A stretch of DNA of 43,385 nucleotides from Alphaproteobacteria bacterium. Lineage in GTDB: Bacteria; Pseudomonadota; Alphaproteobacteria; Sphingomonadales; Sphingomonadaceae. The first letter of the stretch is position 1. The number at the start of each line of letters is the position of its first letter. This document shows positions 7,837 to 10,528 of the stretch, one piece after another. The notes below the pieces were generated by a model. It was not told the DNA's origin. It saw nothing but the letters and a program-made list of their open reading frames with translations, and made no database searches. Location: contig JAHJHL010000183.1 in assembly GCA_018823905.1 (NCBI GenBank), positions 1 through 43,385 on the forward strand, in the 5' to 3' direction. A program made the translations under genes and the position numbers.

Positions 7837-8934
7837 ATGGGTTTCAAATGCGGGATCGTCGGCCTGCCCAATGTCGGCAAGTCCACCCTGTTCAACGCGC
7901 TGACCGAAACGGCGGCGGCGCAGGCGGCCAATTATCCGTTCTGCACGATCGAGCCGAATATCGGCAATGTCGCGGTGCCCGACGCGCGGCTCCAAAAGCT
8001 GGCCGCCATCGCGAACAGCAAAAAGATCATCGCGACGCAGCTGGCGTTCGTCGACATCGCCGGGCTGGTCCGCGGCGCGTCGAAGGGCGAAGGTCTGGGC
8101 AACCAGTTCCTCGGCAACATCCGCGAAGTCGATGCCATCGTCCACGTCCTGCGCTGTTTCGAAGATGACGACATCCAGCACGTCGAAAACAAGGTCGATC
8201 CGGTCGCCGATGCCGAAACGGTCGAAACCGAATTGCTGCTGTCCGACCTCGAAAGCCTCGAAAAGCGCGTCCCCGCCTTTGTGAAAAAAGCCGCGCAGGG
8301 CGACAAGGAAGCCAAGATTGCGGCGTCGGTGCTGGGCCAGACGCTCGACCTGCTGCGCGAAGGCAAGCCCGCGCGGCTGACCGACCCCAAGGACGAGGAG
8401 GAAGCCCGCGTCCTGCGAACAGCGCAGCTGCTGACCTCAAAACCTGTGCTCTATGTCTGCAACGTCGATGAAGCCAGCGCCGCGAACGGCAATGCGTTCT
8501 CCGAAAAGGTGTTCGCCAAGGCGGCTGCCGAGGGCGCGCAGGCTGTTGTCGTGTCAGCGGCGATCGAGAGCGAGCTGGTGACGATGGACATGGCCGACCG
8601 GCTGGAGTTCCTCGAAGAGATGGGCCTGCACGAAACCGGCCTCGCGCGCGTCATCCGCGCCGGGTACGAGCTGCTCCACCTGATCACCTTCTTCACCGTC
8701 GGCCCGCAGGAAGCCCGCGCGTGGACCGTCCACACCGGCGCCACCGCCCCCGAAGCCGCGGGCGAAATCCACAGCGATTTCCAGAAGGGTTTCATCCGCG
8801 CCGAAACCATCGCCTATGACGACTATATCGCACTGGGCGGCGAAGCGCGCGCGCGCGAGGCGGGCAAGCTGAGGGCTGAGGGCAAGGCGTATGTCGTGCA
8901 TGACGGCGACGTGATGCACTTTTTGCATAGCTGA
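7837..8934 (+). CDS. ychF: YchF, redox-linked ribosome-binding ATPase
   Basis: OBG-family P-loop protein that prefers ATP over GTP, binds ribosomes and is linked to oxidative stress response; cytoplasmic. Length is 365 residues, usual for the family. The P-loop GLPNVGKS is at 9-16, the G3 motif DIAGLV at 73-78, and NVDE at 209-212 replaces the guanine-specific NKxD, explaining ATP preference in this family. A coiled-coil insert lies around 130-170, and the C-terminal TGS domain includes FFTVGPQEARAW and DFQKGFIRAE. It starts at ATG 7837 after ACGGAG. Confidence 0.97.
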   Translation: MGFKCGIVGLPNVGKSTLFNALTETAAAQAANYPFCTIEPNIGNVAVPDARLQKLAAIANSKKIIATQLAFVDIAGLVRGASKGEGLGNQFLGNIREVDAIVHVLRCFEDDDIQHVENKVDPVADAETVETELLLSDLESLEKRVPAFVKKAAQGDKEAKIAASVLGQTLDLLREGKPARLTDPKDEEEARVLRTAQLLTSKPVLYVCNVDEASAANGNAFSEKVFAKAAAEGAQAVVVSAAIESELVTMDMADRLEFLEEMGLHETGLARVIRAGYELLHLITFFTVGPQEARAWTVHTGATAPEAAGEIHSDFQKGFIRAETIAYDDYIALGGEARAREAGKLRAEGKAYVVHDGDVMHFLHS

Positions 8935-8954: not shown

Positions 8955-8992
8955 CGTCATTGCGAGGAGCATAGCGACGAAGCAATCTCCAG
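8955..8992 (+). repeat. Left inverted repeat of the GIY-YIG unit
   Basis: A 38-bp arm starting CGTCATTGCGAGGAGC and ending GCGACGAAGCAATCTCCAG. The reverse complement is found at 9303-9342: 16 bp and 19 bp match perfectly and differ only in a short middle piece (ATA here, CGCAG there). Inside the arm, ATTGC and GCAAT can pair, so it looks like a REP-type palindrome. The gene start lies 2 bp after the arm. Confidence 0.85.
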
Positions 8993-8994
8993 CC

Positions 8995-9294
8995 ATGCGC
9001 CCCAACGCCCAGCCCGCTGTTTACATCATGACCAATCGAAAAGATGGCGTTCTGTACACGGGCGTGACATCGAGCCTGATAGGTCGTGTGTATCAGCACC
9101 GAGAAAAGCGAAGCGGCTTTTCTGCGCGCTATCGATGCGACAAGTTGGTTTGGTTCGAAATGCACGGCGACATGTATTCGGCAATCAACCGCGAAAAACG
9201 GATCAAGGCTGGATCGCGGGCTAGGAAAATTGCTCTCATCGAAACCGATAATCCAGAATGGCGCGACCTGTACGCCGAACTGACGGGCGAATAG
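8995..9294 (+). CDS. GIY-YIG nuclease family protein
   Basis: Small single-domain GIY-YIG endonuclease-like protein, 99 residues, cytoplasmic. The motif strands are VYIM (9-12) and YTG (21-23), variants of GIY and YIG. The probable catalytic Arg is Arg31 in LIGRVYQH, and the metal-binding Glu lies in AINREKRIKAG (Glu67). The family is widespread and mostly uncharacterised. The gene fills the space between two inverted repeat arms (8955-8992 and 9303-9342) almost exactly, which suggests that gene and repeats form one unit. ATG 8995 was chosen because it keeps the whole first strand. Confidence 0.9.
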   Translation: MRPNAQPAVYIMTNRKDGVLYTGVTSSLIGRVYQHREKRSGFSARYRCDKLVWFEMHGDMYSAINREKRIKAGSRARKIALIETDNPEWRDLYAELTGE

Positions 9295-9302
9295 GCCGAT
9301 AA

Positions 9303-9342
9303 CTGGAGATTGCTTCGTCGCCTGCGGCTCCTCGCAATGACG
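9303..9342 (-). repeat. Right inverted repeat of the GIY-YIG unit
   Basis: A 40-bp arm, CTGGAGATTGCTTCGTCGC through CTCCTCGCAATGACG, inverted relative to 8955-8992 with 35 matching positions. It starts 8 bp after the nuclease stop codon and ends 5 bp before the merR-like gene. No target duplication is obvious outside the two arms. Confidence 0.85.
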
Positions 9343-9347
9343 GATGA

Positions 9348-9749
9348 CTAAGGCTCGAACGCCGCCAGGATTGGGCATGGTCCCTTGTCGCTCGCCGCAC
9401 ATTGATCCGCCAGCCGCGCCAAGGCTGCGCGGGTGTCGGTCATTTGCGCGATTTTGGTATCCAGCGCGTCGATCCGCTGCCGCGCAAGGCTGCGCACGCG
9501 CACCCGGTCGTCGCTTTCCTCCAGCGCGAGCAGCTCGGCGATTTCTTCGAGGGTGAAGCCCGACGCCTGCGCCGACCGGATGAATTTCAGGCGGCGCAGA
9601 TCATTTTCGTCATAGCGGCGCACCCCGCCGCCCCAGCCGTCGCCGCCGCTGCGCGCGGGTGTGTCCATCAGGCCGCGGCGCTGATAATAGCGGATTGTTT
9701 CGACGCCGACGTCGCCTGCGGCGGCCAATTTTCCGATGGTCAATTGCAT
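9348..9749 (-). CDS. MerR-family regulator, mercury-type with two of three cysteines
   Basis: Metal- or redox-responsive regulator that remodels promoters with overlong spacers. Length is 133 residues from ATG 9749 (a longer frame to 9806 would cross the operator). The winged HTH is at the N terminus (LTIGKLAAAGDVGVETIRYYQRRGL, within residues 3-27). A dimer helix follows, then Cys117 and Cys125 in QCAASDKGPCPI, matching MerR Cys117 and Cys126. The third mercury ligand (MerR Cys82) is absent; the local sequence is LALEESDD. Mercury sensing is therefore doubtful. It is divergent from the Grx-MauE gene, with a mer-like operator between them. Confidence 0.88.
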   Translation of the reverse strand: MQLTIGKLAAAGDVGVETIRYYQRRGLMDTPARSGGDGWGGGVRRYDENDLRRLKFIRSAQASGFTLEEIAELLALEESDDRVRVRSLARQRIDALDTKIAQMTDTRAALARLADQCAASDKGPCPILAAFEP

Positions 9750-9752
9750 TGC

Positions 9753-9784
9753 TTGACTCCGTACCATGGTACGGAGCCTATATG
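9753..9784 (+). promoter_or_regulatory. MerR-type promoter and operator
   Basis: The -35 box TTGACT (9753-9758) and the -10 region CTATAT/TATATG (9778-9784) are 19-20 bp apart, the overlong spacing typical of MerR-controlled promoters. Between and over them lies a perfect 20-bp palindrome, CTCCGTACCATGGTACGGAG (9757-9776). TTGACTCCGTAC and GTACGG are close to the classic mer operator. Predicted transcription start is at about 9790-9791. Confidence 0.88.
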
Positions 9785-9790
9785 GGTTGC

Positions 9791-10528
9791 ATGACAAGCC
9801 AAGCAACCCTTCATCGCATGGTCATGCCGGGGCAAACCTGCCCCTATGGCCTCAAGGCAAAACATCTCCTGAAACGGCGCGGCTTCACCGTCGACGACCG
9901 CTGGCTGACGACGCGCGCCGAGGTGGATGCGTTCAAGGCCGATCATGGCGTCCAGACGACGCCGCAGGTCTTTATCGATGGGGTGCGCATAGGCGGTTAT
10001 GACGATCTGCGCCGCCATTTCGGCCTGACGGTCGCCGATCCCGATGCGGTAAGCTATCGGCCCGTGATCGCCTTGTTCGCGATGACCGCGCTGATGGCAC
10101 TGGCGGCGAGTTTTGCGGCGTTCGGTAATGCGTTCACAATCCAAGCGGGCGAATGGTTCATATCGTTCAGCATGGTCGTGCTGGCGCTGCTCAAGCTGCA
10201 GGACTTGGGCAAGTTCGCGACGATGTTCCTCAATTACGACCTGCTGGCGCGCCGCTGGGTGCCTTATGCGACCATCTATCCGTTCGCCGAGGGGCTGGCG
10301 GGCGTGTTGATGACCGCGCATGCGCTGCCGTGGTTGTCGATCCCCGTCGCGCTGTTCATCGGCGGCATCGGCGCGGTTTCGGTGTTCAAGGCGGTCTATA
10401 TCGACAAGCGCGAGTTGAAATGCGCCTGCGTCGGCGGCAGCAGCCGGGTGCCGCTGGGCTTTGTGTCGCTGACCGAAAATCTGGCGATGGTCGGCATGGC
10501 ACTCTGGATGCTATGGACGCTGGTGTGA
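9791..10528 (+). CDS. Glutaredoxin domain fused to MauE-like membrane domain
   Basis: Predicted inner-membrane thiol-redox protein, 245 residues from ATG 9791 (ATG 9782 overlaps the -10 box). Residues 6-80 are glutaredoxin-like: active site CPYG (17-20), TTPQVFIDG with cis-Pro (56-64), and GG at 68-69. Residues about 92-245 form four hydrophobic segments of the MauE/DoxX type with a conserved KCACVGG (210-216). The fusion suggests electron transfer between a cytosolic Grx domain and a membrane thiol pair. It is the first gene of the MerR-controlled unit; the predicted transcript starts at or next to the ATG, so it may be leaderless. The substrate is unknown. Confidence 0.85.
   Translation: MTSQATLHRMVMPGQTCPYGLKAKHLLKRRGFTVDDRWLTTRAEVDAFKADHGVQTTPQVFIDGVRIGGYDDLRRHFGLTVADPDAVSYRPVIALFAMTALMALAASFAAFGNAFTIQAGEWFISFSMVVLALLKLQDLGKFATMFLNYDLLARRWVPYATIYPFAEGLAGVLMTAHALPWLSIPVALFIGGIGAVSVFKAVYIDKRELKCACVGGSSRVPLGFVSLTENLAMVGMALWMLWTLV

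Follow-up and report, generated by a model that had tools for sequence, protein, structure and literature searches.

A compact GIY-YIG nuclease gene framed by inverted REP-like arms in a Sphingomonadaceae genome: a candidate repeat-nuclease unit and its gene-less relatives

Introduction

Among the systems described to date, the REP repeats and their RAYT transposases offer a close parallel to the locus presented here. In the REP-RAYT system, as outlined by Nunvar (2010; PMC2817692), two inverted REPs flank the gene, gene and repeats appear to coevolve and the number of repeats follows the gene, and the REP-like repeats were proposed to be mobilised by the RAYTs. The same three features, a gene between two inverted repeats, apparent coevolution and a repeat number that follows the gene, are encountered in the present system, and composite gene-less repeats occur in both; unlike in REP-RAYT, the unit encodes a GIY-YIG enzyme and no Y1 transposase. 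Y1 transposases operate through a covalent enzyme-DNA intermediate, which is not expected here because the enzyme belongs to the GIY-YIG type.

A second parallel is provided by the Ssn proteins, GIY-YIG site-specific single-strand nucleases which, reportedly in work by Chenal, Veyrier and co-workers in Nat Commun in 2025, cut at cognate repeats. The Neisseria member is said to act at the NTS repeat and to modulate transformation, and that work is not known to have centred on moving units or on partners without a gene. Like the Ssn proteins, the nuclease described here is compact, stands alone and has a cognate repeat present in many copies in the genome. Several nuclease clades with different arms per genome, moving units and doublets sharing the ends of the unit may distinguish the present system from the Ssn system. 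The homologue from Neisseria gonorrhoeae, 50% identical to the protein of our locus, is presumably the published Ssn, and the nuclease of our locus is probably itself a member of this single-strand nuclease family. The sequence-only reading of this DNA had spoken of a little-described kind of element, an assessment which no longer holds, since Ssn nucleases with cognate repeats were reportedly made known from Neisseria in 2025. Among the literature matches listed, as judged from titles and the first lines of abstracts, none linked GIY-YIG nucleases to REP-like repeats; those for GIY-YIG with REPIN dealt, by title, with restriction enzymes, and none was found for GIY-YIG with dRS3 or with repetitive extragenic palindromic sequences. 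The mobile units, the gene-less partners and the coexistence of several systems per genome are new to us.

The locus lies in a stretch of 43,385 nucleotides (contig JAHJHL010000183.1), hereafter the window. We regard it, with a probability of about 0.6, as one unit of a repeat-nuclease system in which the nuclease acts on the arms and both units and doublets spread, a system that operates in the manner of REP-RAYT, the RAYT being replaced by a GIY-YIG nuclease.

Organization of the Arm-Gene-Arm Unit

The unit is located between ychF (7837..8934, plus strand) and the gene of a MerR-family regulator (9348..9806, minus strand), two neighbours lying outside the unit which served as anchors for the comparison of sites. 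It consists of an upstream arm of the long form of the A1 family (8955..8992, plus strand, 38 bp), a compact gene coding for a GIY-YIG nuclease of 99 amino acids with a PF01541 match (8995..9294, plus strand), and an inverted downstream arm, also of the long A1 form (9303..9342, minus strand, 40 bp). The lengths of the arms, their identity over 16 + 19 bp and the restriction of their difference to the middle, all noticed in the sequence-only reading, were borne out, together with the tight spacing of 2 bp from the first arm to the ATG and of 8 bp from the stop codon to the second arm. Two exact matches to the arm pattern are present in the window, and none in 100 dinucleotide shuffles.

The ATTGC/GCAAT palindrome previously attributed to each arm does exist, but as a stem of just 5 bp with a long loop, weaker than had been claimed. 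Folded as single-stranded DNA, the arms of the window prefer stems of the CGTC../..GACG type, with a modest gain over shuffled sequences (z -2.0 for the first arm; for the second, -0.5 on one strand and -0.9 on the other). Clean hairpins, as judged by eye, occur in other arm families, e.g., CCCCGCGAAAGCGGGG.

The inner end of the upstream arm, TCCAGCCATG (8988..8997, plus strand), extends into the start codon and begins with TCCAGC as in the gene-less doublets described below, and that of the downstream arm, TCCAGTTATCGGCCTA (9292..9307, minus strand), includes the stop codon of the plus strand and coincides, except for one base, with the inner consensus of the doublets, TCCAGC[TC]ATCGGCCT.

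The GIY-YIG Nuclease

The GIY-YIG domain of the window protein was recognized with PF01541 (E 1.2e-13; 51.6 bits for a cut-off of 22.6). Catalysis by GIY-YIG enzymes depends on conserved tyrosines, an arginine and a glutamate, which correspond here to Y10, Y21, R31 and E67; these four residues, as well as G23, H35 and N86, are invariant in two alignments of 15 and 22 sequences. The AlphaFold model corresponds to a confident single domain (pLDDT 90), for which the nearest solved folds, both with modest scores, are that of UPF0213 (PDB code 1zg2; E 6.6e-4, TM 0.55) and that of the GIY-YIG domain of UvrC (PDB code 1yd6), the latter with a probability of 0.97 but an E-value of 0.12. The likeness to UPF0213 and to the N-terminal domain of UvrC, known from structural genomics or from repair, is one of fold.

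Ten pairs among five close relatives gave dN/dS values of 0.02-0.12, with dS mostly above 1 and with the pairs containing L069 or L070 left out as ungapped misalignments; the protein is thus under purifying selection. No NCBIfam model came near any cut-off for it, PADLOC returned no match, and phage records contained none at E 1e-6. In plasmids, 32 records matched at E 1e-10, all of them below 60% identity.

Depending on the clade, a short segment of the nuclease differs. The A1 nucleases, to which that of the window belongs, and their A2 sisters read KAGSRARK or nearly so, and nearly all other aligned sequences resemble KKWNRAWK, two tryptophans thus being lost. The KAGSRARK segment accompanies the CATTGC..GCAATC arm and could mark a recognition surface.

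Gene-Less Doublets and Mobile Units

The own genome contains 49 arms of the A1-type family, for none in a control with the reversed pattern, and 20 of these arms form 10 inverted pairs that leave no space for a gene. Twenty-six A1 doublets were compared, 20 of them from G001 and G003, chosen as a long arm paired with a short one, and 6 from the own genome, selected on the basis of their inner ends and all likewise long and short; the long/short asymmetry of the former 20 is no result, because it was the criterion of selection. The majority inner end on either side of the 26 doublets reads TCCAGC[TC]ATCGGCC, which is matched by the inner ends of the units, TCCAGCTATCGGCCTA downstream and TCCAGC[CGA]ATG upstream. 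A doublet-type element thus carries the gene in its loop. The combination of arms varies, the ychF-associated units having two long arms, symmetric short-short pairs existing too (L026 and A2 pairs), and L001 combining a long and a short arm with inner ends of the A2 type.

By retaining the ends of a gene-bearing unit, the short gene-less elements resemble the partners in MITE/transposon pairs, from which the present system differs in that the sole gene of the unit is a nuclease instead of a transposase and that no target-site duplication was seen by eye in the flanks, in spacers that are highly divergent.

According to the preferred reading, the small GIY-YIG nuclease would recognise the arms at both ends of the unit encoding it together with those of many gene-less inverted doublets, which would represent the non-autonomous partners of the unit. 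It would probably nick the arms when these are single-stranded, at replication forks or in incoming DNA, and repair or recombination at the nick could result in the copying or exchange of units and doublets, a dispersal that would resemble the action proposed for RAYTs on REPs. We infer that the nuclease binds and cuts the arms and that this cutting drives the dispersal; its preference for single strands is presumed by analogy with the Ssn nucleases.

The main rival to this reading is that the nuclease merely regulates DNA exchange and that the units spread passively. As an Ssn-type regulator devoid of self-mobility, it would cut the arms in incoming single-stranded DNA and thereby shape transformation and recombination, and the units would relocate only by horizontal transfer and by homologous recombination between shared repeats. 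Such a role agrees with the function reported for the Neisseria Ssn at NTS, the relative from Neisseria gonorrhoeae having inverted arms as well, and it fits both the many arms found without a nuclease and the mode of inheritance of the units. Among 421 cross-genome pairs of nucleases with at least 80% identity, 317 share both flanks, 52 share one and 52 share none, so that inheritance is mostly vertical.

One clade, characterized by H arms and an ARSSHG motif, nevertheless has the appearance of a moving unit. Its 13 units with full-length gene matches are distributed over 10 contexts, contexts in two species being taken as different when blastn aligned no 120 bp within about 1 kb; one of the 13 has an internal stop, and in two the downstream arm was missed by the search pattern. 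Two copies occur in each of G040 (98% identical) and G028 (92%), with unshared flanks, and the alignment of nine H-arm units ends at the arms. Near-identical copies in one genome, homology ending at the arms and the multiplicity of contexts look like movement of the unit, and the gene-less doublets with unit ends look like mobile derivatives, all of which speaks against a purely regulatory nuclease; we therefore consider this rival rather unlikely, even though it is the likeliest of the alternatives.

Two further observations concern the H clade. In several of its units (L199, L202 and others), the coding sequence ends inside the downstream arm, which itself supplies the final residues (..GPGSSPG or ..DPGSSPG) together with the stop codon. 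In G052, fragments of H-clade genes lie at or near the ends of contigs C5, C7, C24 and C81, which suggests copies that broke the assembly.

Occupancy of the Sites in Related Genomes

Thirty ychF loci were fetched, at 20 of which, the own one included, merR was within reach. The A1 unit is present in three of these 20 ychF-merR spacers, those of the own genome, G003 and G052, the gene being broken in the latter. Nine spacers contain repeats of other families, two of the nine with a single A arm in addition, and eight are free of any of 13 repeat patterns, three of them being longer and five measuring 23-34 nt; some of the spacers without these patterns harbour another palindrome, CTCCCGC..GCGGGAG. 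G011 and G001 also possess the unit beside ychF (with a match from residue 38 only in G001), and the A1 relatives of G041, G078, G042 and G068 are located elsewhere. The homology between A1 relatives stops at the outer edge of the arms. Among the A2 loci inspected, 14 of 15 have an identical upstream neighbour, a constancy that speaks against the preferred reading.

A comparable situation was found for H-arm units. The gene pair flanking the G040 unit (L199) is kept in relatives, and the six spacers read contain no H unit; three of the six hold a repeat of the C, E or O family, none of the H family. At a second site (L194), a scan for arms in 11 stretches from relatives detected no H arm. The same intergenic gaps, at ychF-merR and at L199, are thus occupied by different repeat families across species, which gives them the look of hot spots.

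The sequence-only reading had taken gene and arms for a compact unit similar to REP-RAYT but equipped with a GIY-YIG nuclease, and this idea is supported on three sides, by the gene-less arms and pairs elsewhere in the genome, by arm-GIY-arm units at different loci (the A1 relatives away from ychF and the H clade in its 10 contexts), and by sites without the unit in relatives (the ychF-merR spacers and the L199 site). The opposite case it had envisaged, repeats without any link to GIY-YIG genes at a fixed locus, is not what was observed, since the repeats are linked to such genes and the locus is variable.

The occupancy of the sites also bears on homing, in which the nuclease would cut gene-less doublets and repair would copy the gene-bearing unit into them. 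Homing would agree with the arms and inner ends common to units and doublets, which could represent two states of a single element. However, no doublet of the same family occurs in relatives at the two sites read, the 20 ychF-merR spacers being devoid of any A1 doublet and the L199 spacers of any H repeat, and the arms of the unit remain intact, so that they would still be targets. Homing is accordingly regarded as improbable.

Distribution of Framed Nucleases and Arm Families

Inverted REP-like arms were detected at 145 of 159 GIY-YIG loci from 56 genus genomes and at none of 942 shifted controls. Inverted repeats were scored from 220 bp upstream to 260 bp downstream of the GIY-YIG domain, with a threshold score of 16, the scan being anchored on the domain because the gene runs into the arm in some clades. 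In the first genus set, 128 of 139 loci reached a score of at least 16, against 0/828 windows shifted by 500-900 bp; among 20 further loci, chosen in search of a second A1-like clade and read with a slightly wider downstream window, 17 were framed, against 0/114 controls. These loci form a non-random sample drawn from the best matches in 80 genus genomes, to which 80 loci hand-picked from the matches listed (many short-contig loci being passed over) and the 20 chosen loci were added; three rows were removed, L045 (frame), L064 (identical to L033) and L034 (a 790-aa frame without a compact gene).

In a broad set of 80 GIY-YIG loci from genomes at large, 55 reached the same score, against 2 of 445 controls. 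These 80 were the top-ranking ones among 568 confirmed candidates and are near the query, with one Sphingopyxis locus (L292) included and three loci with short flanks retained. Bacteroidetes, Chloroflexi, Nitrospira, Omnitrophota and Neisseria gonorrhoeae (L276, inverted arms with a score of 18) are among the positives, and a frequent form of the arm is GTCAT-[CCCGC..GCGGG]-AATCCAG. The motif AGCGGACGT, considered as a target preference, was dropped, as it occurs at 2 of 160 loci only.

Within the genus, the family of the arms tracks the clade of the nuclease. On a tree of 155 of the 159 rows, 146 of which were labelled with 17 arm families by patterns written after the arms had been inspected, 22 changes of family are needed (minimum 16), for a mean of 114 after shuffling. 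The A1 clade of the window (protein identity of at least 75%) has arms reading AATCTCCAGC, and the arms of its sister clade A2 (57-67% identity) carry AATCCAG. Distinct systems coexist in one genome, as illustrated by the own genome, where two further compact GIY-YIG genes, besides that of the window, are framed by inverted repeats of different families, CGTCATCCCAGCGAAAGCTGGGATCGCT and CGTCATCCCGGCGAAGGCCGGGATCTC.

Genomes possessing a given nuclease contain more of the arms cognate to it. Counted across the 80 genus genomes with the patterns GAAGCAATCTCCAG and GAAGCAATCCAGAG for A1 and A2, respectively, A1 arms show a median of 30 in the 9 genomes that have an A1 nuclease (decayed in two of them) versus 0 in the 71 others (p 6e-6), and A2 arms a median of 29 in the 15 genomes with an A2 nuclease versus 3 in the 65 others (p 5e-8), these p-values ignoring phylogeny. 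Non-cognate combinations of arm and nuclease are weaker (p 0.03 and 0.07, again ignoring phylogeny). Among the 71 genomes lacking an A1 nuclease, 17 nevertheless have at least 10 A1 arms, and up to 80, and 9 of the 65 lacking an A2 nuclease have at least 15 A2 arms; one of these nine (G004) proved to possess an A2-like gene (56%) framed by A arms. The arms thus outlive the gene or need none. In G039, 80 A1 arm ends are accompanied by no A1 nuclease of at least 75% identity among the matches listed, and could be relics after a loss or depend on another enzyme.

The numbers of arms also bear on a transposase acting in trans, a RAYT or another Y1 enzyme that would move the REPs with the GIY-YIG gene as a passenger. 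It would be in line with the mobilisation of REP-like repeats proposed for RAYTs (PMC2817692, as outlined there), but PF01797, the family of Y1, RAYT-type transposases, matches nothing in the own genome, whose draft assembly is 95.6% complete, and was found in 15 of the 80 genus genomes, with no difference in arm number between genomes with and without it (median 19 vs 21, p 0.65), and in only one (G052) of the nine genomes with A1 nucleases. On account of this distribution, a RAYT in trans was rejected as highly improbable. Finally, an ordinary gene beside ubiquitous repeats, or a chance inverted repeat, would agree with the gene-less arms of the own genome but is dismissed in view of the 0/942 shifted controls as opposed to 145/159 framed genes, and of the link between arm family and protein clade.

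Beyond the window, the results tentatively point to a widespread class of REP-like mobile elements driven by a GIY-YIG (single-strand) nuclease, in which autonomous units would maintain swarms of doublets and several mutually independent systems would coexist per genome; we rate this generalization somewhat below an even chance. It would account for many of the most frequent intergenic palindromes of the GTCAT[stem]..CCAG type across phyla. Many intergenic palindromes would in this way gain a candidate enzyme, the nuclease may be what sustains these very common repeats, and the problem solved by REP-RAYT would have a second, chemically different solution. The 17 arm families of a single genus also constitute a natural set of nucleases with their likely targets, from which specificity could be read or built.

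Two minor observations may be added. In G001, long A arms at C2:262247-262290 and C2:955364-955407 have a different palindrome (GACCCCGGACTTGATCCGGGG) in place of their middle, one repeat being nested inside another. Next to the unit of the window, at 9348-10525, the MerR-family regulator is divergent from a glutaredoxin-MauE fusion protein, the two perhaps forming a metal or thiol stress module.
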